DNA of 64,000 bases from Modestobacter lapidis. GTDB lineage: Bacteria > Actinomycetota > Actinomycetes > Mycobacteriales > Geodermatophilaceae. The translations under genes and the position numbers were made by a program. A model generated the notes under the pieces. The model was not told the origin of the DNA and did no database searches. It was given only the letters and a program-made list of their open reading frames with translations. The DNA lies in NCBI GenBank assembly GCA_019779905.1, contig JABAKE010000003.1, positions 248,001 through 312,000 of the forward strand. Reading direction: 5' to 3'. Within the stretch, counting starts at the first letter, position 1. Every line of letters starts with the position of its first letter. This document shows, piece after piece, positions 33,968-54,811 of the stretch.

Positions 33968-34060
33968 GCGCAGGAGCGGCCGGCGGGCTCGCGACGGATG
34001 ACGTAGTCCATCCCCGACGGGAGGCCGTTCCGCGGTGCGGGCCGGCGACCTAGGTTCGGC

Positions 34061-34085
34061 GGGCCGGGCGCGTTCCGCCCGGCCC
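34061..34085 (+). terminator. hairpin between the two-component genes and the Rieske operon
   Basis: GGGCCGGGCG-CGTTC-CGCCCGGCCC, perfect 10-bp arms with a 5-base loop. A TAGGTT box at 34051-34056 lies just upstream; if that is the operon's -10, the hairpin would be in its leader and could attenuate rather than terminate. Confidence 0.6.
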
Positions 34086-34143
34086 GGCGTCGCCGCCCCG
34101 AGCCACCCGTCCGAGCCCGAACCGACTGGAGGTTGCCACTCCC

Positions 34144-34578: not shown

Positions 34579-34613
34579 CCGATCCCCTTCCCACCCACCC
34601 CGAGGAGCCCCTC

Positions 34614-35702
34614 ATGGTCGCGCCCCCGCGTCTGGTCCTGGACGGCTGGTACCTGGCCGCGTTCTCCGACGAGGTCGGCCGCACGCTGCTGCAGCGCTGG
34701 ATCTGCAACCGCCCGGTCGTCTTCTACCGGCTCTCCGACGGCAGCGTGAACGCCCTCGAGGACCGCTGCCCGCACCGCCGCTACCCGCTGTCCCTGGGCC
34801 GGCTGGACGGCGACGTCATCGAGTGCAACTACCACGGCTACCGGATCGCCGACGACGGGGTCTGCGTGGGCGTGGCCGAGCAGCCCGACCAGCCCAAGGC
34901 CTCGACCGTGCGGTTCCCGCTGGTGGAGCGGGACGGCCTGGTCTGGATCTGGCCCGGCGACCCGGCGAAGGCGGACCCGGCCGACATCCCGGACACCTGG
35001 TGGCTGTCGGACCCGGGCTGGACGCACGTGCAGGGCAGCGTCGGCCTCAAGGCCCGGCAGATCCTGCTCGTGGAGAACCTGCTGGACCTGACCCACGAGA
35101 CGTTCCTGCACCCCGGCAGCATCGGCAACGCCGCGGTGGCGGCGACCCCGATCGACGTCACCAGCGACACCCGGAGTGTGTCGTTCACCCGCCACATGAT
35201 CGGTATCGAGGCCCCGCCCTTCTACCAGAAGTCGATGGGCCTGACCTCGCCGATCGACCGGTGGCAGGACGGCGACTTCTACGCCCCGGGCGTCTTCGTC
35301 CTCAACATCCGGCTCGCGCCGACCGGCACCGAGGAGCCCGACGGGTTCCACATGAAGGTGCTCTACGGCATGACCCCGGCCACCGACACCACGACCCACG
35401 ATTTCTTCTGCCTGGGGCGGGACTACAAGGTCGAGGACGAGGAGCTGTCGGCCTTCCAGCTGCAGCAGCAGCTCGCGGTCATGAAGGAGGACATCGACGC
35501 CCTGGAGGTCCAGGAGCTGATGGTGGCCACCGACCCGGGGATGATCGAGTCCAGCATCCGCTCCGACGTCGCCGGGGTCCGCGGCCGGCGGTTGCTGGAC
35601 AAGATGGCCAAGCGCGAGGCGGCGGCCGAGGCCGCAGCCGCGCCGGCGCGCCCGCAGCGACCCGCCGCGGCCGCAGCCCCCGCCGGGGTGGCCGCTCCGT
35701 GA
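34614..35702 (+). CDS. Rieske oxygenase, VanA/phthalate-dioxygenase-like oxygenase component
   Basis: 362 residues from ATG 34614 (GAGGAG upstream). The N-terminal Rieske 2Fe-2S domain has CPHRRYPLS and, 18-20 residues later, CNYHGY. The catalytic domain has the mononuclear-iron His cluster in NLLDLTHETFLHPGS. This branch includes vanillate O-demethylase and aromatic ring O-demethylases/hydroxylases, so release of formaldehyde or dihydroxylation is expected. No reductase gene is in the operon, so electrons must come from elsewhere. The last 35 residues are an Ala/Pro-rich tail. It overlaps the next gene (GTGA). Confidence 0.88.
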   Translation: MVAPPRLVLDGWYLAAFSDEVGRTLLQRWICNRPVVFYRLSDGSVNALEDRCPHRRYPLSLGRLDGDVIECNYHGYRIADDGVCVGVAEQPDQPKASTVRFPLVERDGLVWIWPGDPAKADPADIPDTWWLSDPGWTHVQGSVGLKARQILLVENLLDLTHETFLHPGSIGNAAVAATPIDVTSDTRSVSFTRHMIGIEAPPFYQKSMGLTSPIDRWQDGDFYAPGVFVLNIRLAPTGTEEPDGFHMKVLYGMTPATDTTTHDFFCLGRDYKVEDEELSAFQLQQQLAVMKEDIDALEVQELMVATDPGMIESSIRSDVAGVRGRRLLDKMAKREAAAEAAAAPARPQRPAAAAAPAGVAAP

Positions 35703-36415
35703 CGACGTACGTCCTGGTCCACGGTGCGTGGCACGGCGGCTGGTGCTGGGACCGGGTCGCCCCGTTGCTGCGGGCAGCCGGTCACGAGGTGCACGCCCCG
35801 ACGCTCACCGGGCTGTCGGAGCGGGCCCACCTGCTTTCCCCGCAGGTAGGCCTGGACGCCCACGTGGAGGACGTCGTCCGGCTGGTCGACACCCTCGGGC
35901 TGTCCGACGTCGTGCTGGTCGGCCACAGCTACGCCGGGCAGGTCGTGACCGCGGTGGCCGACCGGCGGCCGGCCGCGATCGGCCGGCGGGTGTACCTGGA
36001 CGCCTTCGTCGGCGACGACGGCGAGGCCGCCCGGGATTTGCTGCCCGGGACCGTCGAGCACCACTGGGCGGAGTCGGCGGCCACCGCCGGTTTCGGCTGG
36101 CTGGTGCCGGTGCGCAAGCTGTCGGTGCTCGGCGTGACCGACCAGGCCGACGTCGACTGGCTGACGCCCAAGCTCACCCCGCACCCGTGGAAGACCTACA
36201 CCGACCCGCTGCACCTCACCGGCGCGGTCGACGATGTGCCGGCGTCGTTCATCGAGTGCGTCACCTGGATGCGGGTCTTCCAGGCCCAGGCCGACCGCGC
36301 CCGCGAGCGCGGCTGGGGCGTGCACGAGCTCGACACCGGGCACGAGGCGATGGTGACCGCTCCGCGCGAGCTCGCCGACGTCCTGCTCTCCCTCACCGGC
36401 CGAACCGCAGGCTGA
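35699..36415 (+). CDS. alpha/beta hydrolase
   Basis: 238 residues from GTG 35699, coupled to the Rieske gene. LVHGAWHGGWCWDRV, the Ser elbow GHSYAG (about 82) and final His in ELDTGHEAM form a full catalytic set with an acid in the PASFIECV/AVDDVP region. The form is close to the MenH/methylesterase-like hydrolases common in aromatic clusters. It may hydrolyse an aromatic ester or a lactone in this pathway. Confidence 0.85.
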   Translation: MTTYVLVHGAWHGGWCWDRVAPLLRAAGHEVHAPTLTGLSERAHLLSPQVGLDAHVEDVVRLVDTLGLSDVVLVGHSYAGQVVTAVADRRPAAIGRRVYLDAFVGDDGEAARDLLPGTVEHHWAESAATAGFGWLVPVRKLSVLGVTDQADVDWLTPKLTPHPWKTYTDPLHLTGAVDDVPASFIECVTWMRVFQAQADRARERGWGVHELDTGHEAMVTAPRELADVLLSLTGRTAG

Positions 36416-36462
36416 CCCGCCGGTCGACCGGCACAGACCCCCGACACAGACAGGAGACCAGC

Positions 36463-36741
36463 GTGGAGTTCCTCGTCCGGTCCGAGAACAGGCTGCCCGC
36501 CGACACGCCGCCCGAGCGCCGGGCAGAGCTGCGCGCCGGCGAGCGCACCCGCGCCATGGAGCTGCGGGAGGCCGGCATCCTCAAGCGGCTGTGGCGGGTG
36601 CCCGGCCGCAACGCCACGGTCGGTCTGTACGAGGCCGCCGACCCCGCCGAGCTGCACGACGCGCTGATGTCGCTGCCGATGTCGCCGTGGCTCGACGTCA
36701 GCGTCGAGGCGCTGGCCACCCACCCGCAGGAGCGCACGTGA
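36463..36741 (+). CDS. muconolactone delta-isomerase-domain protein
   Basis: 92 residues, the size of muconolactone isomerases. VEFLVRSENRLPADTP and LREAGILKRLWRVPGR followed by LYEAADPAELHDALMSLPM match the small ferredoxin-like fold. Classical members isomerise muconolactone to the enol-lactone in the beta-ketoadipate route. Here the neighbours are extradiol (LigAB) genes, so it may act on a different lactone or tautomer. GTG 36463 has CAGGAG upstream; the stop overlaps the next GTG. Confidence 0.8.
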   Translation: MEFLVRSENRLPADTPPERRAELRAGERTRAMELREAGILKRLWRVPGRNATVGLYEAADPAELHDALMSLPMSPWLDVSVEALATHPQERT

Positions 36742-36926
36742 CCGGCGCCGGGGGCGACCAGCTGCTGCGGGTCTCCTTCCGGCAGCACGACGGTGAGCTC
36801 GCCGGCCGCTGCTGGTGTGGCCGGACCTGGTCCAGCTCGAACCCCCGGGACATGTGGGAGTGGCTGGAGGATCATGAGCACGCGGGGACGTCGGCGGACC
36901 CCACCGGACCGGGAGCGCATCGATGA
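36738..36926 (+). CDS. 62-residue CxC protein
   Basis: Unrecognised. It starts at GTG 36738, overlapping the isomerase stop, and ends overlapping the LigA ATG at 36923, so it is translated within the operon. Core: RVSFRQHDGELAGRCWCGRTW then a DMWEWLEDHEH helix. A single CxC pair could bind a metal with the nearby His residues, but it is too small for a Rieske reductase or a 2Fe-2S ferredoxin. Possibly an accessory of the Rieske oxygenase or of LigAB. Confidence 0.65.
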   Translation: MTGAGGDQLLRVSFRQHDGELAGRCWCGRTWSSSNPRDMWEWLEDHEHAGTSADPTGPGAHR

Positions 36927-37282
36927 CGGCTGAGGGCAGGCCCGGCGCGCAGGAGAACTACGTCTTCGACCTCGCGACGAGCCGTCGCGGGTACCGGATG
37001 AACAAGCTGTTCGGCTCGCTCGGCGATCCGGCCAACCGGGAGCGGTTCACCGCCGGCGAGGCGGCGTACTGCCAGGAGTTCGGCCTCACCGCCGAGCAGC
37101 AGCAGGCGGTGCTGGACCGCGACTGGCAGGCGATGCTCGACCTGGGCGGCAGCATCTTCTACGTGTTCAAGCTGGCGATGATGGACAAGCGGTCCATGCA
37201 GTACCTCGGTGGGGTGTTCACCGGGATGACGGAGGAGGAGTTCATGGCGGCGCTGAAGGCGGGTGGACGGATCCGTGGCTGA
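36923..37282 (+). CDS. ligA: protocatechuate 4,5-dioxygenase alpha subunit-like (LigA)
   Basis: 119 residues, all helical. YVFDLATSRRGYRMNKLFGSL through LTAEQQQAVLDRDWQAMLDLGG and GMTEEEFMAALKAGGR is the LigA pattern. LigA forms the lid of the active site of LigB in protocatechuate 4,5-dioxygenase. ATG 36923 overlaps the upstream stop, and the LigB gene follows with a small overlap. The symbol reflects family, not proven substrate. Confidence 0.88.
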   Translation: MTAEGRPGAQENYVFDLATSRRGYRMNKLFGSLGDPANRERFTAGEAAYCQEFGLTAEQQQAVLDRDWQAMLDLGGSIFYVFKLAMMDKRSMQYLGGVFTGMTEEEFMAALKAGGRIRG

Positions 37283-38132
37283 GGTCATCTGGGGTCTCGC
37301 GACCTCGCACGTCCCCTCGATCGGCGCGGCGATGGACCGCGGCAAGACCGAGGACCCGTACTGGAAGCCGCTGTTCGACGGGTACCGGCCGGCCCGCGAG
37401 TGGATGGCTGAGCACCGGCCGGACGTCGCCGTGATCGTCTACAACGACCACGCCAACGCCGTCGGCCTGGAGATGGTCCCGACCTTCGCGATCGGTACCG
37501 CCGACAGCTACCGGGTGGCCGACGAGGGCTTCGGCCGCCGTGCGGTGCCCGACGTGGTCGGGCACCCGGAGCTCTCGCTGCACCTGGTCGAGCAGCTCGT
37601 CGACGAGGGCTTCGACCTGACCGTCTGCCAGGAACTGGACGTCGACCACGGGCTCACCGTGCCGCTGTCGATCTTCTGCCCCGAGCCCGGCGACGCCTGG
37701 CCGTGCGCCGTCGTGCCGGTCCTGGTCAACGTCATCCAGTACCCGCAGCCCACCGCGGCGCGCTGCTACGCGTTGGGCCAGGCGATCGGGCGGGCCATCG
37801 CGGGCTTCCCCGACGACCTGAAGGTTGCCGTCTTCGGCACCGGCGGGATGTCGCACCAGCTGGCCGGCAGCCGGGCCGGGTACATCAACCCGACGTTCGA
37901 CCACATGTACCTCGAGGCGATCCAGGCCGATCCGGAGAAGCTCGCGGCGCTCACCCGCGAGGAGTACATCGACCAGGCCGGCTCGGAGGGCATCGAGCTG
38001 ATCATGTGGCTGGTCATGCGCGGGGCGATGAACCCCGAGATCACCAAGGTGCACTCCACCTACCACGTGCCGGCGTCGAACACCGCCGCCGCGCTGGCGC
38101 TGTTCGACAACCGGGTGCCGCGGCCGGCCTGA
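37275..38132 (+). CDS. ligB: class III extradiol dioxygenase, LigB type (beta subunit)
   Basis: 285 residues from GTG 37275 (VAEVIWGLATSHVPSIG); GTG 37263 is an alternative. Fe(II) ligands expected of LigB enzymes are visible: His in TSHVPS (about 11) and in YNDHAN (about 60), and an acidic ligand region toward the C-terminus. The catalytic His is in GGMSHQLAG (about 195), with DVDHGLTVPL also conserved. With the preceding LigA it should open a protocatechuate- or gallate-like ring by meta-cleavage. No ligC, ligI or ligJ gene is nearby. It converges with the IclR gene, whose stop is 8 bases away. Confidence 0.88.
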   Translation: MAEVIWGLATSHVPSIGAAMDRGKTEDPYWKPLFDGYRPAREWMAEHRPDVAVIVYNDHANAVGLEMVPTFAIGTADSYRVADEGFGRRAVPDVVGHPELSLHLVEQLVDEGFDLTVCQELDVDHGLTVPLSIFCPEPGDAWPCAVVPVLVNVIQYPQPTAARCYALGQAIGRAIAGFPDDLKVAVFGTGGMSHQLAGSRAGYINPTFDHMYLEAIQADPEKLAALTREEYIDQAGSEGIELIMWLVMRGAMNPEITKVHSTYHVPASNTAAALALFDNRVPRPA

Positions 38133-38140: not shown

Positions 38141-39034
38141 TCAGCCGGCCGCCGTGCCCTCCAGCGTGCCCGCCGCCGTGCCCCCCGCCGTGTCCGTCGC
38201 CGTGTCCGTCGCCGTGCCCGCCGCCGTGTCCGCTGCCGGGGGCGCGGCGGCGGCGCGGCGCTGCCAGCGCGCCCAGTCGGCGCTGACCTCACCGGCGGCC
38301 CGCTGCAACCGGGGCAGGTGCTCGGCCAGCAGCCGCTCGAGCGAGGTCTCGGCGGCGTGCACGGTCACGTTCATCGCCGCCCGCACCGCGCCGGCGCCGT
38401 CCCGCACCGGCACGGCGACCGACCGCACGCCGGGGGCCAGCTCCTCGTCGGCCAGCGCCCAGCCCCGGGCCCGTACCTCGGTGAGCACGACGTCGAGGTC
38501 AGCGGCGGTCGGCGTGGGTGCGTCCGGCAGGCCGGCGCGGCTCGGCAGTGCGAGGGTGGCTGCCAGCTCGGCGGGGGTGAGGGCGGCGAGCAGCACCTTG
38601 CCCTGTGAGGTGCGCACAGCCGGGAACCGGGTGCCCACCTCCACCCGCACGGTGATCAGCTTGGGCACCGAGACCCGCGCGACGTAGACGATGTCCGGGC
38701 CGTCCAGCTGGGAGATCGACGACGACTCACCGGTCTGCCGGACCAGCGCCTCCAGGTGCGGGCGGGCGGCGTCCCACAGCCCCAGCGCGCCCACGTAGGC
38801 CATCCCCAGGGTGAGCACCGGCGGGGCCAGCGTGAACGCCCCGCCGACCGGCCGGACGAAGCCCAGTTCCGCCAGGGTGAGCAGCAGCCGCCGGGCGGTG
38901 GGCCGCGCCAGGTCGGCGGCGGTGGCCACCTCGGTCAGCGTCATCGTGCGGTGACCGGGGTCGAAGCAGGCCAGCACGTCCAGCCCGCGGGCCAGTGCCT
39001 CGACGAAGTCCGGGACCTCTCCGCGTCCGGCCAT
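38141..39034 (-). CDS. IclR-family regulator (PcaR-like), copy 1
   Basis: 297 residues. N-terminal winged helix (about 8-70; TLTEVATAADLARPTARRLL), then an IclR effector domain with VYVARVSVPKLITVRVEVG, TSQGKVLLAAL and the C-terminal SVAVPVRDGAGAVRAAMNV. The sequence resembles regulators of protocatechuate genes (PcaR group). It follows the amidohydrolase by 12 bases, so both share the promoter with operator at 40559; autoregulation is likely. It is my leading candidate for binding CGGAC-N4-GTCCG sites across 40.5-50.2 kb. Closely related to the gene at 55337 but with a repeat tail. Confidence 0.92.
   Translation of the reverse strand: MAGRGEVPDFVEALARGLDVLACFDPGHRTMTLTEVATAADLARPTARRLLLTLAELGFVRPVGGAFTLAPPVLTLGMAYVGALGLWDAARPHLEALVRQTGESSSISQLDGPDIVYVARVSVPKLITVRVEVGTRFPAVRTSQGKVLLAALTPAELAATLALPSRAGLPDAPTPTAADLDVVLTEVRARGWALADEELAPGVRSVAVPVRDGAGAVRAAMNVTVHAAETSLERLLAEHLPRLQRAAGEVSADWARWQRRAAAAPPAADTAAGTATDTATDTAGGTAAGTLEGTAAG
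38144..38227 (-). repeat. seven tetrapeptide codon repeats at the 3' end of the IclR gene
   Basis: The last 28 sense codons of the regulator read as seven units of Thr-x-x-Gly/Asp (TAAG, TATD, TATD, TAGG, TAAG, TLEG, TAAG). At DNA level they form an imperfect 12-bp tandem repeat. The paralogous IclR at 55337 has no such tail. Copy number may vary between strains by strand slippage without changing frame. Confidence 0.75.
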
Positions 39035-39046: not shown

Positions 39047-40528
39047 TCAGGCCGAGGAGCCGGGCTCACCGAAGACGGTGCCCCGGGCGTCGTGCGTGGA
39101 ATCGGACTTGTACTCGGTGTAGGTGTACGGGTTGTCCAGCACCTCGTCGTCCGGCGTCGCCGGGTTCATGCCGGCTGCCCAGGCCTCCTCGCCCAGCGTC
39201 GAGCGCAGGTGCTCCACGGTGGCGTCGAGGGTGGCCCGCACCGCCGGCAGGTCGGCGCCGACCAGCCGGTGCCCGGACTTCACCATTCGGCCGTCGACCA
39301 GGACCGTGTGCACGTCACCGCGCTGGGCCTGGAACGCCACGTGGCCGTAGGGGTTGAGCAGCGGGAACGACACCGGGGAGTCGTCGTTCCTGATCAGCAC
39401 GACATCGGCCTTCTTGCCCGGTTCCAGACTGCCGAGGTCGTCGCGGCCCAGTGCCCGGGCGCCACCGCGGGTGGCCCAGTCGACGACCTGCTCGGCGCGC
39501 AGGTGCACCTGGGTGACGGTCTCGCCCTTCGCGTGCGCCTCGAGGTGCTCCCGGGAGCGGTCGGCGCCCAGCGTCGTGCGCATCGCGGAGAACAGATCGC
39601 TGCTCCACCACACGCTGGTGTCCATCGACAGCGAAACCGGGATGCCGTGCCGGCGGACCTGCCAGGTGGGCGGGTACCCCTGGCCGGCGCTCTGCTCGGA
39701 CTCGGTGGAGACCGAGATCGACCCGCCGGTGGCGGCGATCCGGTGGTAGGAGTCGGTGGTCAGCGTGGCGGCGTGCACGTAGACGGTCTCCGGGGTCATG
39801 AAGCCGTGCTCGTGCATCAGCCGGATGCCCTCGTCGTTGGTGGCGCCCCAGACGCCGGCGTGCGTGGTGACCGGCAGGCCCAGCTCGCGGGCGGCCTCGA
39901 AGGCGGCCTTCTCCGGGAACGCCGGGTCGCCGGTGACGTCGAAGGCCAGCTGGAAGCCCAGCCGGTCGCCGGCACCGGTGCGGCGCCGCTCGAGGAACGC
40001 CTGGACGGCGGGGTCGGTCGCCCACTCCCACGGACCGGCCTGGATGTTGCCGTAGGCGAGCACGAAGCGGCCCGGCACGGCCTGCAGCGCGTCGACGGCG
40101 GCCTCGGCGTGGTCGACGGTCTGCAGCCCGTGCGACCAGTCGACGGTCGTGGTGACGCCGGCCTCCAGGGCATCCCAGGCGGAGAGCAGGTTGCCGGCGT
40201 GGACGTCCTCGGGCCGGAACGCCCGGCCGTGCTCGAGGTAGTACCAGACGAAGTACTGGGTCAGCGTCCAGTCCGCGCCGTACCCGCGCATCGCGGTCTG
40301 CCACATGTGCCGGTGGGTGTCGATCATCCCGGGCAGAACGATGCCGCCGGTGGCGTCCACCTCCAGGGTGCCCTCGGGCACGTCCAGGGCGGTGCCGACG
40401 GCCGCGACCCGGTCGTCGACGACGAGCACGTCACCGCCGGCCAGCACGGTGTGCGCGTCGTCCATGGTCAGTACCGTGCCGTTGCGGAACACCACGGGCT
40501 GTCCGGCGACCTGGTCGGGGTGGCTCAT
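39047..40528 (-). CDS. metal-dependent amidohydrolase (TrzA/AtzA/guanine-deaminase group)
   Basis: 493 residues. Start ATG 40528 was chosen because GAGGAG lies six bases upstream; the ATG at 40534 would touch the ribosome site. The metal ligands of COG0402 enzymes are all present: DTHRHMW (HxH, about 70), TTHAGVWG, VYVHAATL and the Asp of SLSMDTSVWW. A composite beta-sandwich domain flanks the barrel (LEPGKKADVVLI). Such enzymes deaminate or dechlorinate rings or hydrolyse amides. Its place beside the IclR gene, under a shared operator, ties it to the aromatic regulon, but the substrate is unclear. Confidence 0.88.
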   Translation of the reverse strand: MSHPDQVAGQPVVFRNGTVLTMDDAHTVLAGGDVLVVDDRVAAVGTALDVPEGTLEVDATGGIVLPGMIDTHRHMWQTAMRGYGADWTLTQYFVWYYLEHGRAFRPEDVHAGNLLSAWDALEAGVTTTVDWSHGLQTVDHAEAAVDALQAVPGRFVLAYGNIQAGPWEWATDPAVQAFLERRRTGAGDRLGFQLAFDVTGDPAFPEKAAFEAARELGLPVTTHAGVWGATNDEGIRLMHEHGFMTPETVYVHAATLTTDSYHRIAATGGSISVSTESEQSAGQGYPPTWQVRRHGIPVSLSMDTSVWWSSDLFSAMRTTLGADRSREHLEAHAKGETVTQVHLRAEQVVDWATRGGARALGRDDLGSLEPGKKADVVLIRNDDSPVSFPLLNPYGHVAFQAQRGDVHTVLVDGRMVKSGHRLVGADLPAVRATLDATVEHLRSTLGEEAWAAGMNPATPDDEVLDNPYTYTEYKSDSTHDARGTVFGEPGSSA

Positions 40529-40558
40529 CAACATCTCCTCGGGTCATGGCCGGCCAGG

Positions 40559-40629
40559 GCGGACCGGTGTCCGTCTGGTGGTCGACACAGCATGCTGCAG
40601 ACCTTGGGATGGCTACCCCTCGGTGTCAA
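40559..40629 (-). promoter_or_regulatory. leftward promoter with operator A (amidohydrolase-IclR operon)
   Basis: On the minus strand TTGACA (40629-40624), 17 bases, CAAGGT (40606-40601). Downstream lies CGGAC-CGGT-GTCCG (core 40560-40573), about 20-35 bases after the expected start point, a typical place for repression. Same operator form as at 40711, 44296, 49997 and 50166. Confidence 0.75.
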
Positions 40630-40668: not shown

Positions 40669-40725
40669 TTGACAGTCCGTCATCCGGAGTTCGAGACTCA
40701 GACGGCCGAACGGACATACGTCCGT
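40669..40725 (+). promoter_or_regulatory. rightward promoter with operator B (CoA-transferase operon)
   Basis: TTGACA at 40669-40674, then a weak -10 (GAGACT, 40693-40698, 18-base spacer). CGGAC-ATAC-GTCCG at 40711-40724 covers the expected start region. Divergent from promoter A, so one regulator could control both operons from this 233-base gap. Confidence 0.65.
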
Positions 40726-40761: not shown

Positions 40762-41976
40762 ATGACCGCACATCAGCCCGTCCCCGGCGCCGCGTCTGGT
40801 CGGGGGCCCCTGGCGGGTCTGCTGGTGGCCGACTTCTCCCGCGTCCTGGCCGGCCCCTACGCCACCATGCTCCTGGCCGACCTGGGCGCCGAGGTGGTCA
40901 AGGTGGAGAGCCCGGCCGGGGACGACACCCGCAGCTGGCAGCCCCCGGTCCGGGACGGGGTGTCCACGTACTACCTGGGCATCAACCGCAACAAGCGGTC
41001 GATCGCCCTGGACCTCAAGGACGCCGACGACGCCGCGGCAGCCCGCGAGCTGGCCCGGCGGGCCGACGTCGTGGTGGAGAACTTCAAGCCCGGCGGGCTG
41101 GCCCGCTTCGGCCTGGACTACGACTCGGTGTCGGCCGGCAACCCCGGCGTCCTCTACGCCTCCATCAGTGGCTTCGGTAGCGGCCCGGAGGGGGCTTCGC
41201 TGCCCGGGTACGACCTGATCGTCCAGGCCATCTCCGGGCTGATGAGCCTCACCGGCGACCCCGAGGGCGAGCCGTACCGGGCGGGCATCTCGGTGTTCGA
41301 CGTGATGGCCGGGCTGCACGCCACCATCGGCGTCCTCTCCGCGCTGAACCGCCGGCACGAGACCGGCCGCGGGCAGCACATCGAGGTGAACCTGCTGTCC
41401 TCGGCGCTGTCCGGGCTGGTCAACCACTCCAGCGCCTACGTCGCCGGCGGCGTCGTCCCGTTCCGGATGGGGAACAGCCACCCGAGCCTGTTCCCCTACG
41501 AGCCGCTGCCCTGCGCCGACGGCGACCTGATCATCACCGCCGGCAACAACGGGCAGTTCCGCAAGCTCGTCGAGGTGCTCGGCGTCCCCGAGCTCGCCGA
41601 CGATCCGCGGTTCGCCCGCAACGAGGACCGCACGGCCAACCGCGACGAGCTGCGCCCGCTGCTGGTCGACCGGCTGCGCACCCGCACCAAGATGCAGTGG
41701 TTCCGCGACATCATCGGCGCCGGCGTGCCGTGCGGGCCGATCAACACCGTCGACCAGGGGGTCGACTTCGCCACCGAGGTCGGCCTGGACCCCGTGGTCA
41801 CGGTGGGGGAGGGGCGGGCTGCCGTGCCCTCGGTGCGCAACCCCATCCGCTTCTCCGAGACCCCCGCCGACTACCGGCTGCCCCCGCCGGGCCTCGACGA
41901 GCACGGTGCGGTGCTCCGCGACTGGCTGGCCGCCCCGGTCGCCGGTGCCGGGCAGACCCGCGAGGGCACGGCATGA
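40762..41976 (+). CDS. CaiB/BaiF-family (class III) CoA-transferase
   Basis: 404 residues from ATG 40762. GPLAGLLVADFSRVLAGPYA and TMLLADLGAEVVKVE are the family opening; NRNKRSIALDLKD, the catalytic Asp in PGYDLIVQAISGLMSLTG and GGRGQHIEV-like TGRGQHIEVNLL follow. These enzymes move CoA between carboxylic acids through a glutamyl or aspartyl anhydride. It is the first gene of an operon with a citryl-CoA-lyase-like protein and a LigB/LigA pair, coupled to the lyase by ATGA overlap. The likely acceptor is a ring-fission di- or tricarboxylate (inference). Confidence 0.93.
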   Translation: MTAHQPVPGAASGRGPLAGLLVADFSRVLAGPYATMLLADLGAEVVKVESPAGDDTRSWQPPVRDGVSTYYLGINRNKRSIALDLKDADDAAAARELARRADVVVENFKPGGLARFGLDYDSVSAGNPGVLYASISGFGSGPEGASLPGYDLIVQAISGLMSLTGDPEGEPYRAGISVFDVMAGLHATIGVLSALNRRHETGRGQHIEVNLLSSALSGLVNHSSAYVAGGVVPFRMGNSHPSLFPYEPLPCADGDLIITAGNNGQFRKLVEVLGVPELADDPRFARNEDRTANRDELRPLLVDRLRTRTKMQWFRDIIGAGVPCGPINTVDQGVDFATEVGLDPVVTVGEGRAAVPSVRNPIRFSETPADYRLPPPGLDEHGAVLRDWLAAPVAGAGQTREGTA

Positions 41977-42848
41977 GCGCCGAGCCCCCGGTCTACCGGA
42001 CGGCGCTGGGCGCCTCCAGCCTGGAGAAGATCACCCTGCTCGGGCACGACCTCGCCGAGGACGTCATGGGCACGGTGGGCTTCGGTGAGCTGGCCTTCTG
42101 GCTGGCCACCCAGCGGCGCCCCACGGCCGGTGAGACCCGGGTGTTCGAGGCGGTGCTCGCCGCGCTGGCCGACCACGGGTTCACCCCGACCGCGATCGTC
42201 ACCCGGTTGACCTACCTGTCCGCCCCGGACTCCGTGCAGGGCGCGCTGGCCGCCGGGCTGCTCGGCGGCGGGTCGCGGTTCCTGGGTGTCACCGAGGACA
42301 GCGGCCGGTTCCTGCACGACGTGCTGACCGGCGTCTCCGCCGCCGATCCCACCCGCTCGTTGCCCACCGACGACGCCGGCTGGGACGCCCTCGCGCTGGA
42401 GACGGTGCAGGCGCAGCGGGCGGCGAAGCGGTTCGTGCCCGGCCTGGGCCACCACGTGCACAAGCAGGGCGACCCGCGCACCCCGCGGTTGCTGCAGATC
42501 GCCACCGAGGAGGGCCTGTTCGGCCCCCACCTGTCGCTGTTCGCCGCGATCGGCCGGGTGCACCCCCAGGTGCTCGGCAAGACGCTGCCGCTCAACGGTG
42601 CCGGCGTGTGCGGGGCGGCGCTGGCCGACCTCGGGCTGCCGCTGGAACTGCTGCGTGGCTTCGCCCTGCTGGCCCGTACGGCCGGGCTGATCGGGCAGCT
42701 GGCCGAGGAGCTGCGGCACCCGGTGGGCAACGATGTCTTCCTGTCGGTGGACCTCAACAACCGGTCCGTCGCCCCCGACCCCTTCGTCCCGGACCCACTC
42801 CCGGGCGCACCCACGGAGACTGACACCAACGGAGGTCGTCATGGCTGA
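41973..42848 (+). CDS. citrate synthase/citryl-CoA lyase-like protein
   Basis: 291 residues, shorter than citrate synthase (about 370-430) but matching its short citryl-CoA-lyase-like relatives. GFGELAFWLATQRRPTAGE, the conserved His region FVPGLGHHVHKQGDPRTPRL (about 150-170) and a C-terminal GNDVFLSVDLNNRSV are visible. The family makes or splits citrate-like tertiary hydroxyacyl-CoA by Claisen chemistry. Coupled translation with a CoA-transferase upstream and LigB downstream (8-base overlap) suggests it cleaves a CoA ester derived from the ring-fission product. The LigAB-derived CHA is itself citrate-like. Confidence 0.82.
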   Translation: MSAEPPVYRTALGASSLEKITLLGHDLAEDVMGTVGFGELAFWLATQRRPTAGETRVFEAVLAALADHGFTPTAIVTRLTYLSAPDSVQGALAAGLLGGGSRFLGVTEDSGRFLHDVLTGVSAADPTRSLPTDDAGWDALALETVQAQRAAKRFVPGLGHHVHKQGDPRTPRLLQIATEEGLFGPHLSLFAAIGRVHPQVLGKTLPLNGAGVCGAALADLGLPLELLRGFALLARTAGLIGQLAEELRHPVGNDVFLSVDLNNRSVAPDPFVPDPLPGAPTETDTNGGRHG

Positions 42849-43704
42849 ACTGGCCGCGGTCGTCGCGTCCACCCACCACCCCTTCTACTACCGGGCGAAG
42901 ACGTCGACGGGTGCCGACCGGCCGCCGTTCGCCGACGAGTGGGTCGCCAAGCAGACGGCCTTCGCCGAGACGCTGAACCGGGCCGAGCCCGACGTGCTGG
43001 TGATGGTGGGCAGTGACCACTTCCACCAGCTGTGGCTGGACAACATGCCGCAGTTCCTGGTCGGGAAGGCGCCGTTCTTCGACGCCAACTGGTACAACGA
43101 GGAACGCGAGTTCGGCCTGCCGAAGATGACGCTGCGCGGCGAGGAGGACCTGGCCGCGCACCTGCTGCGCGACGGCCTGGACCGGGACTTCGACCTGGCA
43201 TTCAGCAACGAGCTGCGGATCGACCACAGCATCACCTGCCCGATCATCGCGCTGCGGCCCGAGGCCGACCTGCCGATCGTGCCCGTCTACACCAACATCT
43301 TCGCCCCGCCGATGCCCCAGCCCAAGCGCTTCGTGCAGCTGGGCAAGGCGCTGCGGGAGATGGTCGAGTCCTGGGACAGCGACAAGCGGGTGGCCATCAT
43401 CGGCACCGGGCACCTGTCGCTGGAACTCGGCGGCCCGCGCCAGTTCGGTGAGCACGGCCCCGACCCGGAGTTCGACCGCAAGGCCGTGGAGTGGATCGCC
43501 AGCGGCGACATCGAGGGCTGCCTGGCCGAGGTGAGCCTGGACAGCCTGCACCACCCGGGCAACGCCACCCACGGCTTCATGGATTTCATGCTGATGATGG
43601 GCGTCGCCGGCGAGGGTGCCAAGGCCGACCACGTCGACACCCTCGATCTGTTCCACACGATGGAGGCCTACTTCACCTGGTACCCGAACGGGGCCCCGGC
43701 GTGA
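42841..43704 (+). CDS. class III extradiol dioxygenase, LigB type, copy 2
   Basis: 287 residues from ATG 42841 (GGAGG upstream, inside the lyase gene). Iron-site and catalytic landmarks: STHHPFYY (His 12/13), GSDHFHQLW (about 60), DHSITCPII and GTGHLSLELGG (about 190). It differs strongly from the LigB at 37275, so the two probably use different catechol-type substrates. The small LigA-like subunit follows 22 bases later. Likely cleaves a protocatechuate/gallate-like ring giving a carboxylated muconic semialdehyde or oxalomesaconate. Confidence 0.88.
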   Translation: MAELAAVVASTHHPFYYRAKTSTGADRPPFADEWVAKQTAFAETLNRAEPDVLVMVGSDHFHQLWLDNMPQFLVGKAPFFDANWYNEEREFGLPKMTLRGEEDLAAHLLRDGLDRDFDLAFSNELRIDHSITCPIIALRPEADLPIVPVYTNIFAPPMPQPKRFVQLGKALREMVESWDSDKRVAIIGTGHLSLELGGPRQFGEHGPDPEFDRKAVEWIASGDIEGCLAEVSLDSLHHPGNATHGFMDFMLMMGVAGEGAKADHVDTLDLFHTMEAYFTWYPNGAPA

Positions 43705-43726
43705 CCAGCGCAGCGGAGGAGTCGCG

Positions 43727-44086
43727 ATGAGCAAGTACCTGATCGACAAGTTCCTGTACACCGTCGACCGCGATCCCGAGCTGGTCGAGCGCTACCGCGA
43801 GGATCCGGCGGGCACGGTGGCGTGGTGGGAGGCTGAGATGGCCAACACCATCCTCAACTGCATCCCCGCGGAGAGGACGACGTGGCTGTCGTTCGCCGAG
43901 GAGGAACGCACGGCGCTCGCGCAGCACGACCACGTGAGGCTGTTCCAGCTGGGCGCCCACCCCTTCCTCACCCTCACCCTGTTCATCGCCATGTTCGAGC
44001 GCGACCACGGCCCGCTGGAGTACCAGAAGGCCTACGGCAAGGCGATGGAGCACATCACGATGCCGTACCCCGACATCACCACCTGA
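43727..44086 (+). CDS. LigA-like small subunit of extradiol dioxygenase, copy 2
   Basis: 119 residues, helical. MSKYLIDKFLYTVDRDPELV and RYREDPAGTVAWWE fit the LigA/aromatic-ring-opening alpha-subunit superfamily, but the sequence differs from the LigA at 36923. The C-terminal part HPFLTLTLFIAMFERDHGP is more hydrophobic than usual. GCGGAGGAG lies eight bases before ATG 43727. It is the last gene of the operon, and two tandem terminators follow. Confidence 0.8.
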   Translation: MSKYLIDKFLYTVDRDPELVERYREDPAGTVAWWEAEMANTILNCIPAERTTWLSFAEEERTALAQHDHVRLFQLGAHPFLTLTLFIAMFERDHGPLEYQKAYGKAMEHITMPYPDITT

Positions 44087-44249: not shown

Positions 44250-44310
44250 TTGACACACCGTCCGCGGGTCGTGCAAGGTCCGGATGTCCGTAGCGCGGAC
44301 AGTTGTCCAC
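44250..44310 (+). promoter_or_regulatory. promoter with operator C (P450-ferredoxin)
   Basis: TTGACA 44250-44255, 18 bases, CAAGGT 44274-44279, then CGGAC-AGTT-GTCCA (44296-44309), one base off the consensus CGGAC-N4-GTCCG, about ten bases after the expected start point. The P450 ATG is at 44360. Confidence 0.7.
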
Positions 44311-45973: not shown

Positions 45974-47170
45974 ATGACGACGACGGCACCCGACACCACG
46001 TCGAGCCCGGCCCGCACCCCCCGCTCGGCAGCTGATCTGGTCGCCAGCGCGACGGCGCTGCAGCCGCTGATCCGCGAGAACGCCGCGGCCAACGAGGCCG
46101 GCGGCCGGCTCACCGACGCCGTCGCCGACGCGCTGCACGAGCACGGGTTCTTCGGGATGTGGACCCCGGCGCCGCTGGGCGGCGCCGAGGCCGACCCGAT
46201 CTCCTCACTGCAGATCGTCCAGGCGCTGGCCTACGCCGACCCGTCGACCGCCTGGGTGACCATGGCCGCGGCGCTGGCCACCGGCACCGGTGGTGGCTAC
46301 CTCGGCGACGAGGCGACCGACAAGATGTTCGTCGGCGACCGCTTCCCCGTCGTGGCCGGCCAGGGCACCCGCCCGGGCAAGGCCGTGCGCGACGGCGACG
46401 GCTACCGGCTGACCGGCTCGTGGGGTTTCGCCTCCGGCATCAAGCACGCCCAGTGGATCCACACCCTCGGCATCGTCGAGGACACCGGCCAGCCGCTGAT
46501 CTTCGTGCTGCCCGTCGAGCAGGCCAACCTGCAGGACAACTGGGACGTCCTGGGCCTGAAGGCCACCGGCAGCATCGACTACACGATCGACGACGTGTAC
46601 GTGCCGGCCGCCTTCACCCACGAGGGCACCACCGAGACCGGCGTCCGCGGCGGCTCGGTGTTCAACCTCGGGATCATGCACTTCGCGATCATCGGCCACT
46701 CGGCCTGGGCGCTCGGGGTGTCCCGCCGGATGCTCGACGACCTGGCCGAGCAGGTGCGCGCCAAGGCCGGCCGCGCCGGCACGCTGGCCGACAGCACCGC
46801 CTTCCAGGCGGCCTACGGCGAGAACGAGGCCAAGTGGCACGCCGCCCGCGCCCTGGTCTACGAGGCCTGGGCGGACGTCACGAAGACCATCGAGGCCGGC
46901 GAGAAGCTCACCCACGAGCAGCGGACCATGGTCCGGCTGGCGCTGTACAACGCCACCTGGACGGCGGAGGCGATCGCCAACTCCGTCTACAAGTCCGGTG
47001 GCACCGCGGCGCTGCGGACGGGTGCGCTGCAGCAGTTCTTCCGCGACATGCACGCCGGCACCCAGCACGTCACCTCCGGCCCGCAGGTCATCGAGGGCGC
47101 CGGCCGTGCGCTGGCCGGCCTGGCGCCGAACCACGCGTGGGTCTACATGAACCTGGTGCCGTCCACCTGA
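45974..47170 (+). CDS. group D flavin monooxygenase, HsaA-like (acyl-CoA dehydrogenase fold)
   Basis: 398 residues, the size of HsaA/IifC-type oxygenases. The acyl-CoA-dehydrogenase-like fold shows FGMWTPAPLGGAEADP, ALAYADPSTAWV, YRLTGSWGFASGIKHA and the C-terminal GTQHVTSGPQVIEGAG, a His-bearing stretch seen in these monooxygenases rather than in dehydrogenases. They ortho-hydroxylate phenols using reduced flavin from a separate reductase; the only candidate here is at 54812. It would make the catechol for a LigB-type dioxygenase. It has its own promoter with an operator shared with importer 1. ATG 45974 has CAGGAG upstream. Confidence 0.85.
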   Translation: MTTTAPDTTSSPARTPRSAADLVASATALQPLIRENAAANEAGGRLTDAVADALHEHGFFGMWTPAPLGGAEADPISSLQIVQALAYADPSTAWVTMAAALATGTGGGYLGDEATDKMFVGDRFPVVAGQGTRPGKAVRDGDGYRLTGSWGFASGIKHAQWIHTLGIVEDTGQPLIFVLPVEQANLQDNWDVLGLKATGSIDYTIDDVYVPAAFTHEGTTETGVRGGSVFNLGIMHFAIIGHSAWALGVSRRMLDDLAEQVRAKAGRAGTLADSTAFQAAYGENEAKWHAARALVYEAWADVTKTIEAGEKLTHEQRTMVRLALYNATWTAEAIANSVYKSGGTAALRTGALQQFFRDMHAGTQHVTSGPQVIEGAGRALAGLAPNHAWVYMNLVPST

Positions 47171-47249: not shown

Positions 47250-48080
47250 TCAGGGGCCGAAGGCCCCGACCATCGCGCCACCGTCGACCGGGTGGACGGC
47301 GCCGGTCATGAACGACGACGCGTCGGAGGCGAGCAGCAGGGCGATGCCCTGGATCTCCTGCCGGATGCCCATCCGGCGCAGCAGCACGGTGTCGGCCCAC
47401 TGCTTCTCCAGCGCCGGCTCGATCGGGCCGCGACCACCGATGTTGGTGTAGAACGGCCCGGGCGCGATGCCGTTGACCCGGATGCCGTCGGGCGCCAGGT
47501 CGACCGCCGCCTGACGGACCAGGTTGGCCAGTGCGCCCTTGGAGGCGCTGTAGCCGTAGCCGACCATGTTGTCCGCCCGGAGCCCGGCCGTGGAGACGGT
47601 CACCACGATGCTTCCCCGGCCGGCCGGGCGCATGGCCCGGGCCGCCGCCCGGACGGTGGCCAGCGTGCCCACCAGGTTCACCGCCAGCGCGCCGTCGAAC
47701 GCCGACCAGTCGAGGTCGTAGAGCCGGCCCTCGGCCGAGCTGATGCCCGGACCGCCGGCGATGCCGGCGTTGGCGAACACGGCGTCCAGCCGGCCGCTCT
47801 CGGCCGCGGCGCCCCCGACGGCGTCCTCGACCTCACCGGGCCGGGACACGTCGCAGACGACCTGCTGCACGGTGCCCCCGGCCCCGGCCAGCGCCGCGGC
47901 ACTGGCGGCCAGCTCCTCGGCGTCCCGGTCGAGCATCGTCACCGCGGCGCCGCACTGGAGCAGCCCCTCGGCCATCGCCAGCCCGAGGCCGCTCGCGGCA
48001 CCGGTCACCAGCACGTGCCGGTCGACCATCGAGAGCCGGTCGGGCAGTGGTCGGGGGTCACGCTGGGCAGGTCCGGTCAT
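47250..48080 (-). CDS. short-chain dehydrogenase/reductase
   Basis: 276 residues, classical SDR: cofactor motif TGAASGLGLAMAE (about 25-37), NAGIAGG (about 101), catalytic Ser in VTVSTAG and YxxxK in YGYSASKGAL (about 170), and PGPFYTNI after the active site. An acidic residue after the second strand (DRDAEE) favours NAD. ATG 48080 overlaps the stop of the alcohol dehydrogenase. Third gene of a leftward operon under operator D; may oxidise a side-chain alcohol or a dihydrodiol. Confidence 0.9.
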   Translation of the reverse strand: MTGPAQRDPRPLPDRLSMVDRHVLVTGAASGLGLAMAEGLLQCGAAVTMLDRDAEELAASAAALAGAGGTVQQVVCDVSRPGEVEDAVGGAAAESGRLDAVFANAGIAGGPGISSAEGRLYDLDWSAFDGALAVNLVGTLATVRAAARAMRPAGRGSIVVTVSTAGLRADNMVGYGYSASKGALANLVRQAAVDLAPDGIRVNGIAPGPFYTNIGGRGPIEPALEKQWADTVLLRRMGIRQEIQGIALLLASDASSFMTGAVHPVDGGAMVGAFGP

Positions 48081-49162
48081 CGGAACGCTCCTGTCATCGG
48101 GTCGCCCGCTCCCGGGCCGGTGGGCAGCCGGGTGTCGCCGGAGACGTCGACCAACACCTTGACCGCCTCGGTGGGGCGCTCGTCGAGCAGCGCGAGGGCG
48201 CCGGCCACCTCGTCGAGCGGGAAGACATGGCTGACCAGCGAGTCGGCCAGCGCGGGATGCCGGGCGACCAGGTCGGCGGCGGCCGCGAACTCGTCGCGGG
48301 TGCAGCAGCTCACGCCGAGGACGTCGAGCTCCTTGAACGGGATGGGGCCGGGGCTGGTCGGTGCCGTGGCGGAGGTCAGGCCCACGACGGCCACCCGGCC
48401 GCCGTGCCCGGCGACGTCGAGGACCGTGGGCAGCAGCGCGGCCCGCCCCGTGGTGTCGAGCACCACGTCCGGACCGTCGGGGCCGCTGTGCGCGAGCACC
48501 TGCCCGGCCAGCTCGGCGCCCTCGGCCCAGGTGACCCCGAAGCCGGCCCGGGCCAGCAGGTCCCGGCGGGCGTCGACCGGGTCGACGACGAGGACGTCGC
48601 CGCCCCGGTCGCGGGCGGCCAGCGCCGACGCCGCGCCGATCGGCCCGGCGCCGAAGACCACGACGGTGTCGCCGGGGGAGACCCGGGCCCGCGCGGCGGC
48701 GTGCACGCCGATCGACACCGGCTCGACCAGCGCGGCCTGCACGCTGCTGAGCGTGGGGGTGGCGACGGCCGCTGCCGTCGGGACGGTGAGCTGCTCCTGC
48801 AACGCGCCGTCCCGGTGCACCCCGATCAGCGCCAGGCGCCGGCACACGTTCACCCGACCCTCGCGGCACGGCCGGCAGGTGCCGCAGGCCAGCACGGGCC
48901 ACACCGCGACCCGGGTGCCCACCGGTGGCCCGCTCCCGGCAGGGTCGGCGGCCGCGACGACGGCGGAGAACTCGTGCCCCTGCACGCGGGGGAGCAGGCC
49001 CTCGTGGGTGGCACCCAGGTCACCGTGCAGCAGGTGCAGGTCGGACCCGCAGATGCCGACGGCCTCGACCCGCACCACGGTCTCCCCGGCCACCGGCCCG
49101 CCCGGGCCGGGCCGGTCCTCGAGGAGGACCGAGCCCAGCCCCTGGGTGACCGCTGCCCTCAT
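48077..49162 (-). CDS. zinc alcohol dehydrogenase (threonine/sorbitol-dehydrogenase-like)
   Basis: 361 residues. Catalytic zinc Cys in GICGSDLHL (about 38), GHEFSAVV (about 63), structural zinc CGTCRPCREGRVNVC (about 93-107), and cofactor motif FGAGPIGAAS (about 170). Medium-chain dehydrogenases of this group oxidise secondary or vicinal alcohols. ATG 49162 overlaps the hydrolase stop and its own stop overlaps the SDR start, so all three are made together. Confidence 0.9.
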   Translation of the reverse strand: MRAAVTQGLGSVLLEDRPGPGGPVAGETVVRVEAVGICGSDLHLLHGDLGATHEGLLPRVQGHEFSAVVAAADPAGSGPPVGTRVAVWPVLACGTCRPCREGRVNVCRRLALIGVHRDGALQEQLTVPTAAAVATPTLSSVQAALVEPVSIGVHAAARARVSPGDTVVVFGAGPIGAASALAARDRGGDVLVVDPVDARRDLLARAGFGVTWAEGAELAGQVLAHSGPDGPDVVLDTTGRAALLPTVLDVAGHGGRVAVVGLTSATAPTSPGPIPFKELDVLGVSCCTRDEFAAAADLVARHPALADSLVSHVFPLDEVAGALALLDERPTEAVKVLVDVSGDTRLPTGPGAGDPMTGAFR

Positions 49163-49971
49163 CGACCGGCGGGAACCGGCTGGGACAGGAAGGCGATCAC
49201 CTCGTCGGCGACCACGTCGGGCTTCTCCTGGTACAGCGCGTGGCCGATCTCGGTCAGCACGTGCAGCTCCGCCCCGGGGATGGCGGCGGCGTACGCCTCG
49301 CTGTGCGGGCGCGGGATGATGCGGTCCTCCTCCGCGGTGATCACCAGGGTCGGCGCGCTGATCGCCTTCAGCCGGGCCGGCAGCTCCGGGTTGTGCAGGA
49401 ACACGGGACCGGAAGCGGCGAAGCGCTCGACCGCGGCCATGTCGCGGGCGCCCTGGGCGGCGGCCTCGGGGGTGGGCGGCACCGACAGCACGGCCTCGGT
49501 GAGGGCCTGGTCGTGGAACAGCGCCCCGAACAGCTCCGGCGGCGTCATGGTCAGGATGTTGGCGGTCGGTGCATCGGGCAGGTGCAGCCCGGCAGGGGCC
49601 ATCAGGATCAGCCGGTCGATCCGGTCCGGGACCGTGCTGGCGATCTCGGCGGCGATCCAGCCGCCGAAGGACGAGCCGACCAGGTCGAACCGGTCCAGGC
49701 CCAGGGTGTCGAAGAGGGCGACGTAGTGCTGGACGAGCAGCTCCATGGTGGCCACCTCGGGGAGCTCGTCGCTCAGCCCGAAGCCGGGGTGGTCAGGGGC
49801 GATCACGTCGAAGTGCTGGGAGAGCTGCTCGAGGTAGGGGTTCCACGCCCCGGCGCCGCCGGCGGCGTGCAGGACGACGACCGGACGGCCCGTCCCCTGG
49901 CGGAACAGGTTGATCTCCCCGGAGCCCGTCGGGACCCTGGTGGGGGTGGGGCCTGCAGCCGGAACGGTCAC
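49159..49971 (-). CDS. alpha/beta hydrolase, meta-cleavage-product-hydrolase-like
   Basis: 270 residues. VVLHAAGGAGAWNPYLEQL (oxyanion region), Ser elbow GSSFGGWIA (about 101), Asp in ITAEEDRIIP and His in TEIGHALYQEKP complete the triad. The build and spacing are those of C-C hydrolases and related esterases of aromatic catabolism, though the substrate could also be a simple ester. First gene of the leftward operon; promoter and operator D lie upstream within 80 bases. Confidence 0.85.
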   Translation of the reverse strand: MTVPAAGPTPTRVPTGSGEINLFRQGTGRPVVVLHAAGGAGAWNPYLEQLSQHFDVIAPDHPGFGLSDELPEVATMELLVQHYVALFDTLGLDRFDLVGSSFGGWIAAEIASTVPDRIDRLILMAPAGLHLPDAPTANILTMTPPELFGALFHDQALTEAVLSVPPTPEAAAQGARDMAAVERFAASGPVFLHNPELPARLKAISAPTLVITAEEDRIIPRPHSEAYAAAIPGAELHVLTEIGHALYQEKPDVVADEVIAFLSQPVPAGR

Positions 49972-49995: not shown

Positions 49996-50050
49996 GCGGA
50001 CAGCTGTCCGCCTTTACGCCCACCGTGTCGCACACCACACCCGGTGTCAA
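49996..50050 (-). promoter_or_regulatory. leftward promoter with operator D (hydrolase operon)
   Basis: On the minus strand TTGACA (50050-50045), 17 bases, CACGGT (50027-50022). GCGGACAGCTGTCCGC at 49996-50011 is a perfect 16-bp palindrome beside the expected start point and 25 bases before the ATG. This is the best copy of the CGGAC-N4-GTCCG operator. With the entry at 50165 it accounts for the 329-base gap 49972-50300, in which I see no gene. Confidence 0.78.
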
Positions 50051-50164
50051 TGCTGCCGCAAGGTCCCGCGACCTGCCGGTAGGAGTCGCGGTGGTCGCCG
50101 GCACCGGTCCCACGAGCGGCGTAGGGGTAGGTCGGTGCGCGCGCCCGGCGGCGCTGACCGCAAA

Positions 50165-50216
50165 ACGGACACTTGTACGTGTGACGGTTGACACGCTCGC
50201 GGCGCGCTGTCAGGGT
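50165..50216 (+). promoter_or_regulatory. rightward promoter with operator-like site E (importer 2 operon)
   Basis: TTGACA 50188-50193, exactly 17 bases, CAGGGT 50211-50216. CGGAC-ACTT-GTACG (50166-50179) matches the operator consensus except for one base and lies just upstream of the -35 box, unlike the others, which lie downstream of their promoters. The binding-protein ATG is at 50301. Confidence 0.68.
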
Positions 50217-50300
50217 TCCGCCACCACCACGGCGTCAGGCGGGTGCCGGCACTCGGCCCCAGGCGCTCGTTGTGTTCCCCGACGACGAGAAGGACGCGAC

Positions 50301-51535: not shown

Positions 51536-51620
51536 CCGCTCGACCGACACACCCGTGGGACGACGGCGGATGCGCACGTCCGCCCGCGTCCCACGTCCAC
51601 CCGGCAGATGGGCAGCACGG

Positions 51621-54780: not shown

Positions 54781-54811
54781 CCCACCCACGAGAACCATGG
54801 AGGACGACCCG

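Follow-up and report, generated by a model that had tools for sequence, protein, structure and literature searches.

A conserved six-gene module in Modestobacter lapidis and other Actinobacteria with the genetic make-up of a probable CoA-dependent pathway for an aromatic compound

The DNA analyzed here, which we refer to as the window, is a 64,000-nucleotide stretch of the Modestobacter lapidis genome (assembly GCA_019779905.1, contig JABAKE010000003.1, positions 248,001 to 312,000 of the forward strand); loci compared with it carry L numbers. At its center are four plus-strand genes for a CaiB/BaiF CoA-transferase (CaiB), a citryl-CoA-lyase-like protein (CCL), a LigB-like protein and a small LigA-like protein. 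A preliminary description of this DNA had placed the four genes in one operon, three of them coupled by overlaps, and this is borne out by the open reading frames (ORFs) of the window: all four are intact and share a strand, caiB and ccl overlap in an ATGA at 41973, the next junction is an 8-base overlap, and a 22-base gap precedes the last gene. To separate the LigB-like and LigA-like pair from a canonical LigA1-LigB1 pair at 36923-38132, we refer to the former as LigB2-LigA2 (together LigB2A2). The four genes are part of a six-gene module whose other members, a divergent amidohydrolase gene and a gene for an IclR-family regulator, had been overlooked in that description (Table 1).

Table 1. 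Genes and palindromic sites of the module and its surroundings, in window coordinates.
Feature	Position	Strand	Remarks
IclR-family (PcaR/PcaU/PobR-like) regulator	38141-39034	-	TIGR02431, 242 bits, under the cut-off of 284.75
COG0402/PRK08204-type amidohydrolase, divergent	39047-40534	-	PF01979; NF006056, 378 bits, under the cut-off of 391
Palindrome CGGACCGGTGTCCG	40560-40573		Amidohydrolase-CaiB divergent spacer; probable regulator site
Second palindrome CGGACATACGTCCG	40711-40724		Amidohydrolase-CaiB divergent spacer
CaiB/BaiF (family III) CoA-transferase	40762-41976	+	PF02515, 388 bits, 5e-116
CCL (citryl-CoA-lyase-like)	41973-42848	+	NCBIfam NF004868 'citryl-CoA lyase'
LigB2, subunit of class III (LigB-fold) dioxygenase type, active site rearranged	42841-43704	+	PF02900
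LigA2, small helical LigA-like subunit	43727-44086	+	Adjoins LigB2; weak LigA similarity
Variant site GTCCG-N5-CGGAC	44286-44300		Upstream of the cytochrome P450 gene
Cytochrome P450	44360-45550	+	PF00067; L030 and L044 share the gene order and the site
HsaA/HpaB-like flavin-dependent monooxygenase	45974-47170	+	NF045629, 134.7 bits, under the cut-off of 450
Short-chain dehydrogenase/reductase	47250 to about 48047	-	Likely one unit with the alcohol dehydrogenase and alpha/beta hydrolase
Alcohol dehydrogenase	48077-49162	-	Likely one unit with the short-chain dehydrogenase/reductase and alpha/beta hydrolase
Alpha/beta hydrolase	49159-49971	-	Pfam match; conserved in L030 and L044
Palindrome CGGACAGCTGTCCG	49997-50010		Spacer that separates the hydrolase unit from the ABC transporter genes
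ABC transporter binding protein (sugar-type)	50025-51494	+	PF13407
ABC transporter ATPase	51555-53228	+	PF00005
Flavin reductase	54797-55318	+	PF01613, 1.4e-37

Three of the four family names given in the preliminary description held in our scans. The structures matched by CaiB in the Protein Data Bank (PDB) include succinate-hydroxymethylglutarate CoA-transferase. CCL scored 262.6 bits against the citryl-CoA lyase model, above its cut-off of 193, and matched the citryl-CoA lyase structure 6hxp (E 2e-24). LigB2 exceeded the cut-off of its Pfam family (91 against 26.3 bits), and its AlphaFold2 (AF2) model (pLDDT 86.4) has as its best PDB structure the LigAB chain 1bou_B (TM 0.82), with a fold that also resembles the DesB chains (TM 0.76-0.82). 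The LigA name is weaker than stated: LigA2 had no Pfam or NCBIfam match in the family scans, its hhalign match to canonical LigA1 spanned 31 columns only (E 0.0016, probability 16%), and for its AF2 model (pLDDT 81.8) the best Foldseek matches were LigA-containing DesB structures at non-significant values (E at least 0.9). Sequence and model together make LigA2 weakly LigA-like.

The preliminary description had also suggested searching genomes for a conserved order of the four genes. A contig scan with a LigB2 alignment found 492 relatives among 515 candidate stretches, and we analyzed a set of 87 loci made up of the best 80 of these relatives plus seven plasmid loci, counting CaiB and CCL at 45% identity or more. 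LigA2 lies beside LigB2 in all 87 loci, CaiB and CCL are each present in 80, the IclR gene in 74 and the amidohydrolase gene in 72. The 80 of 87 loci confirm that the association of CaiB, CCL, LigB2 and LigA2 is not made by chance. The seven loci without CaiB and CCL at this threshold are two that lie at contig ends (L026 and L051) and five alphaproteobacterial plasmid loci (L018-L022), of which L018-L020 hold CaiB and CCL homologues at 34-41% identity and L021 and L022 hold none. The module is spread across Actinobacteria, with a rearranged form on rhizobial plasmids, and the exact gene order of the window recurs in Nonomuraea. In an evenly drawn sample of the phylum that includes the window's own genome, LigB2-type matches (E <= 1e-40) occurred in 10 of 396 genomes, one of these matches being only 35% identical; close LigB2s (77-85%) were found in eight other genomes of the sample, and all six genes in seven of the stretches fetched from them. 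Of the 80 loci L024-L103, 64 have a quinone-reductase-like medium-chain dehydrogenase/reductase gene, below its model cut-off, after ligA2, a place taken in the window by the P450 gene. An FMN reductase gene lies near the module in L019, L105 and L107.

Some module loci have features of their own. A MetE-like short protein (PRK09121-like) adjoins a module gene, or lies no more than about 2 kb away, in eight loci, both alphaproteobacterial and actinobacterial (L018, L039, L048, L053, L070, L077, L088 and L100), and also occurs in L222 and L233. The Neorhizobium galegae copy (L105, 8777-10857) has caiB and ligB2 in broken pieces, and L052, a metagenome-assembled genome labeled Proteobacteria, has a typical actinobacterial module and is probably mislabeled.

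The place of LigB2-LigA2 in the module can be filled by an unrelated gene. The operon of Rhodococcus opacus G13 (L172) matches that of Rhodococcus NBC_00297 (L017), except that one intradiol dioxygenase gene replaces LigB2-LigA2. This displacing enzyme, which is outside the window's operon and which we term HQD (for intradiol hydroxyquinol-dioxygenase-like), carries PF00775/PF04444 in L172 and matches PnpC (254 bits) and hydroxyquinol 1,2-dioxygenase (241 bits) in the PDB, against 109 bits for the best catechol 1,2-dioxygenase. The Tyr/Tyr/His/His motifs that supply the iron ligands of intradiol dioxygenases are kept in all aligned HQD sequences.

A genome search with CCL (E <= 1e-45) matched 17 of 392 genomes at the level of the phylum and 48 of 394 at the level of the class, the window's own genome being counted in both. 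Leaving aside that genome, seven stretches that had been fetched earlier (all with LigB2) and a short fragment (G481), we fetched 54 stretches, and CaiB was present in 32 of them. These CaiB-CCL loci, 31 of which have the IclR gene and 30 the amidohydrolase gene, divide into 21 with LigB2, nine with HQD, none with both and two with neither (L223 and L234). In the last two the contig ends 809 and 136 bases after ccl, and 809 bases are enough to reveal most of a LigB2. Eight of the nine HQD genes come next after ccl, at distances of -17 to 89 bases; the ninth (L247) sits between the amidohydrolase and CaiB genes, a position that its sister locus L255 fills with LigB2A2. In most loci LigB2A2 itself adjoins ccl or caiB, but in L237, L250 and L261 it is found at the module's far end. 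On a tree of CaiB plus CCL (57 rows) the label changes between LigB2 and HQD seven times, with six changes forced by well-supported branches and six to seven in bootstraps; a quick CCL tree (98 rows) gave six changes, with the rows that have both types (L039, L046 and L060) left out of the count. From these trees and gene orders, LigB2 and HQD seem to have replaced each other several times. Because of this repeated replacement by an intradiol dioxygenase, weighed against the exceptions that follow, we propose that LigB2A2 is very probably a ring-cleaving dioxygenase, perhaps with a trihydroxylated ring as substrate.

Several observations weigh against this proposal, or against a strict interchange of the two enzyme types. 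LigB2A2 and HQD occur together in L039 and L046, and L026 adds an HQD fragment, so that one type need not make the other superfluous. In L060 and L063 an HQD that is more distant in sequence (44%) lies about 10 kb off, and the displacing enzyme of L224 and L227 shares only 39-40% identity with its counterpart in L172. The HQD-like proteins match NCBIfam models of (chloro)catechol 1,2-dioxygenases only, all below cut-off. LigB2A2 is present with no CaiB or CCL nearby in L021, L022 and L108. L115, the stretch from the last of the eight phylum-sample genomes with a close LigB2, has LigB2-LigA2 but lacks the other four genes over 2.3 kb on the upstream side and 9 kb on the downstream side. Conversely, Rhodococcus rhodochrous BX2 (L171) has CaiB and CCL, and neither LigB2 nor HQD was found in its 18.8 kb. 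L115 and L171 slightly lowered our confidence. The losses from LigB2 of the residues equivalent to E242 and H195 of LigB, and from CCL of the catalytic Asp of citryl-CoA lyase, which are described below, count on the same side.

The L171 genes lie in an aromatic cluster (3907-14254) beside a vicinal-oxygen-chelate (VOC) protein, an FAD hydroxylase and a Rieske oxygenase, and perhaps represent a third solution to ring fission. The remaining 22 of the 54 CCL stretches have no CaiB, and one of them (L249) has a partial HQD match. In six of eight CaiB-less stretches inspected (L222, L228, L229, L232, L238 and L248), CCL adjoins an acyl-CoA-ligase-like ORF in place of CaiB; the family scan of these ORFs covered that of L232 only. 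Some of these six have VOC and maleylpyruvate-isomerase-family neighbors.

To read the active site of LigB2 we compared it with LigB, whose metal site is H12, H61 and E242 and whose catalytic His is H195. LigB2 keeps His12, His60 and His129 and, like LigAB and DesB, is encoded as a pair of large and small subunits, but it has Gly245 in place of the Glu metal ligand and Leu194 in place of the catalytic His, gains an invariant His191 and Glu195, and is joined by a small subunit that is barely recognizable as LigA. Among 166 rows with 55% identity or more to LigB2 (121 distinct sequences) there is no variation at His12, His60, His129, His191, Leu194 and Glu195, and the Glu column holds Gly245 in 165 rows and a gap in one, in agreement with a profile alignment. 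In a wider family of 41 representative rows at 85% identity (two the window's own, one duplicate), 26 have the Glu and the catalytic His without His191, 13 have His191 without the Glu and the catalytic His (including the disrupted L105, with a gap at the Glu column), and two (L118 and L120) keep the Glu without the catalytic His. Since the Glu-less proteins form one clade (support 96/88, with the switch columns left out) that is sister to L118/L120, the sequences suggest that the catalytic His was lost first and that the loss of the Glu and gain of His191 came later. L118 and L120, LigB relatives from Shinella and Ochrobactrum, are possible intermediates of this switch. We rejected the coupling of Glu loss with His191 gain as independent statistical evidence for a relocated ligand, as a single clade amounts to one event; His191 as a relocated metal ligand is a structural suggestion, and the AF2 model has low confidence at the adjoining residues 192-199. 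Another Glu-less LigB relative, in a lichen-derived Polymorphobacter (L119, 103-10387), has three genes for RraA-type aldolases and one for an amidohydrolase in its neighborhood.

The CCL active site is also altered. His68 and His160 are kept, the catalytic Asp of citryl-CoA lyase, which is that of the LNVDG motif and is present in 6hxp, is replaced by Ala210, and an extra His163 is invariant. The Asp column holds Ala in 206, Ser in six and Thr in four of 216 rows (154 distinct sequences) and Asp in none, and the Asp is gone as well from CCLs in five other settings. With these textbook residues lost, the reactions of LigB2 and CCL are not readable from their family names. In the other two enzymes the expected residues are in place: CaiB keeps Asp151, the putative catalytic Asp of its family, in at least 97% of 83 rows, and the amidohydrolase keeps H74, H76, H225, H254 and D305, the HxH, His, His and Asp of the COG0402 metal-hydrolase site, in at least 97% of 75 rows. 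The latter protein has HxGxWG at the place of the HxxE typical of related deaminases.

The spacer between the divergent amidohydrolase and CaiB genes contains palindromes of the form CGGAC-N4-GTCCG. This pattern is present in 80 of the 82 spacers from loci where amidohydrolase and CaiB genes (at least 60% identical) are divergent neighbors; mononucleotide shuffling gives an expectation of 0.06, and the loci, being related, are not independent. Four such sites occur in the window, where 0.68 would be expected (one of 100 shuffles reached four). Apart from the two in this spacer, one falls within the monooxygenase gene (46922) and the other is at 49997. Genome-wide the pattern occurs 29 times, against 13 for a reversed control, and single sites elsewhere therefore mean little. 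Palindromes are also found near the hydrolase gene in L030 (20368) and L044 (20554). The variant site upstream of the P450 gene recurs in both these loci, where it also precedes the monooxygenase gene; none was seen before the corresponding gene of the window. As the palindrome is common to loci with either type of ring-fission enzyme (L017/L172 and the HQD loci L257, L258, L265 and L270), it is a feature of both versions of the module. We infer that the set is regulated by the IclR protein, which is predicted to bind these palindromes.

The explanation that best fits the whole, and that we hold with fair though not high confidence, is that the module is a catabolic set for an aromatic compound that becomes CoA-dependent after ring cleavage. 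In the window, the P450 and the flavin monooxygenase would make a polyhydroxylated, probably trihydroxybenzene-type ring, which LigB2-LigA2 would open with O2, a step to which the intradiol replacements point strongly. The amidohydrolase may act ahead of ring opening or immediately after it, perhaps hydrolyzing or hydrating the product. Judged by their families, CaiB would transfer CoA to one carboxylate of the di- or tricarboxylic acid that these steps leave, and CCL would split the CoA ester into an acyl-CoA and a 2-oxo acid, in the manner of citryl- or citramalyl-CoA. Our preferred lower route, held with less confidence, would convert a citramalate-like acid to pyruvate and acetyl-CoA. Some neighbors fit a citraconate- or citramalate-like acid: a LeuD-like gene in Rhodococcus operons, a CCL-CaiB-LeuC-LeuD row on plasmid pBB2 of Cupriavidus necator N-1 (L175, 7998-12040) that likely serves a small hydroxy-acid pathway, and a maleylpyruvate-isomerase-family protein near some of the ligase-type CCLs (L229 was scanned).

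Because hydroxyquinol 1,2-dioxygenases are the nearest PDB matches of the displacing enzyme and the Rhodococcus versions of the operon include an MhpA-like hydroxylase (NF004829, above cut-off), the sequences point to a trihydroxybenzene rather than protocatechuate as substrate. Intradiol and extradiol cleavage of a 1,2,4-triol give different products, and those of a vicinal triol (gallate, pyrogallol or tetrahydroxybenzene) are the same. With the rest of the pathway unchanged by the replacements, the substrate would be a vicinal triol, or LigB2A2 would be intradiol-like, or the later enzymes would accept both products. A change of the catalytic His in a type I extradiol enzyme may switch the cleavage mode; a search of the open PMC literature found no support for an intradiol switch in homoprotocatechuate dioxygenase mutants. 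A specific form of the second option, in which LigB2A2 would be a class III-fold dioxygenase with a His12/His60/His191 metal site and no catalytic His that yields an intradiol-type product into a CoA-dependent lower pathway, is in our view doubtful.

The module resembles known systems in part. An enzyme nearest the hydroxyquinol 1,2-dioxygenase family fills its ring-fission place in other genomes, but where the intradiol hydroxyquinol pathway includes maleylacetate reductase, the module has CaiB and CCL and neither that enzyme nor a beta-ketoadipate enzyme among its six genes. As in citryl-CoA lyase and citramalate-type pathways, a CoA-transferase is paired with a citrate-synthase-fold lyase that keeps His68, His160 and Arg169, but here the lyase lacks the catalytic Asp, has the invariant His163 and is joined to ring cleavage. 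We know of no CaiB and citryl-CoA-lyase-like lower pathway for aerobic ring cleavage, and no pathway with this gene set was found in the open PMC literature, a scope outside which most subscription journals lie.

The preliminary description had proposed a CoA-dependent ring-cleavage route through 4-carboxy-4-hydroxy-2-oxoadipate (CHA) derived from protocatechuate or gallate. Its outline is supported by the conserved module and the intradiol replacements; nothing points to CHA itself. In full, such a route would lead from the gallate or protocatechuate ring through oxalomesaconate to CHA, formed by a LigJ-like amidohydrolase, and by CaiB and CCL to acetyl-CoA and 2,4-dioxoglutarate. The conserved four-gene set and the canonical LigA1-LigB1 next door suit it, and a vicinal triol of the gallate type would explain the replacements without new chemistry. 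Like the protocatechuate/gallate 4,5-cleavage pathway (LigAB, LigJ and LigK), the module has a LigB-fold enzyme in the ring-fission place, but no LigJ/GalB-type hydratase and no LigK-like gene is recognized among the six, and its lower part is CoA-dependent. Moreover, the displacing dioxygenase is nearer to hydroxyquinol enzymes than to protocatechuate 3,4-dioxygenase, the quinone-reductase-like and MhpA-like genes suit hydroxyquinols better, and the residue losses in LigB2 and in CCL, which has no Asp of citryl-CoA lyase, speak against CHA. We consider this route unlikely.

Quite unlikely, in our judgment, is that LigB2A2 is a LigB-fold metal hydrolase or lyase rather than a dioxygenase, with the HQD operons doing a related but different job. 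The missing equivalents of E242 and H195, and the coexistence of LigB2A2 with an HQD-like gene in L039 and L046, would fit, but the nine HQD loci without LigB2 retain the same partner genes and H12, H60 and H129 are kept in every LigB2 row. A nitrogen-containing ring of the hydroxypyridine type, with the amidohydrolase as a deaminase or a KpiC-like ring opener, could account for the HxGxWG motif. KpiC, an amidohydrolase-family protein, is reported to be a 3,4-dihydroxypyridine dioxygenase (PMC7356986). The dioxygenases that exchange with LigB2A2 are nearest to those of carbocyclic triols, and we regard a nitrogen-containing ring as very unlikely.

Other genes of the window may belong to the proposed aromatic pathway. 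The P450 is possibly a co-regulated upstream step, the HsaA/HpaB-like monooxygenase is possibly in the same regulon, and the flavin reductase is a candidate partner of this monooxygenase. The LigA1-LigB1 pair beside the module belongs to a second, ordinary-looking ring-cleavage cluster, adjoined at 34035-36741 by genes for a VanA-like Rieske oxygenase, an alpha/beta hydrolase and a muconolactone-isomerase-like protein. Farther off, on the minus strand, an intradiol dioxygenase of the hydroxyquinol/catechol type (16860-17783) is 44% identical to the displacing enzyme, and its gene adjoins one for a CocE/NonD hydrolase (17780-19582).

The labels 'extradiol dioxygenase' and 'citryl-CoA lyase' rest here on proteins without the textbook residues. 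If an extradiol-fold and an intradiol enzyme do exchange within one pathway, the long-standing question of what decides between intradiol and extradiol cleavage would become testable on naturally interchangeable enzymes. If our reading of the module is true, it would represent an undescribed aerobic aromatic pathway, present in probably hundreds of soil actinobacteria, in which the ring-opened product enters metabolism as CoA esters.

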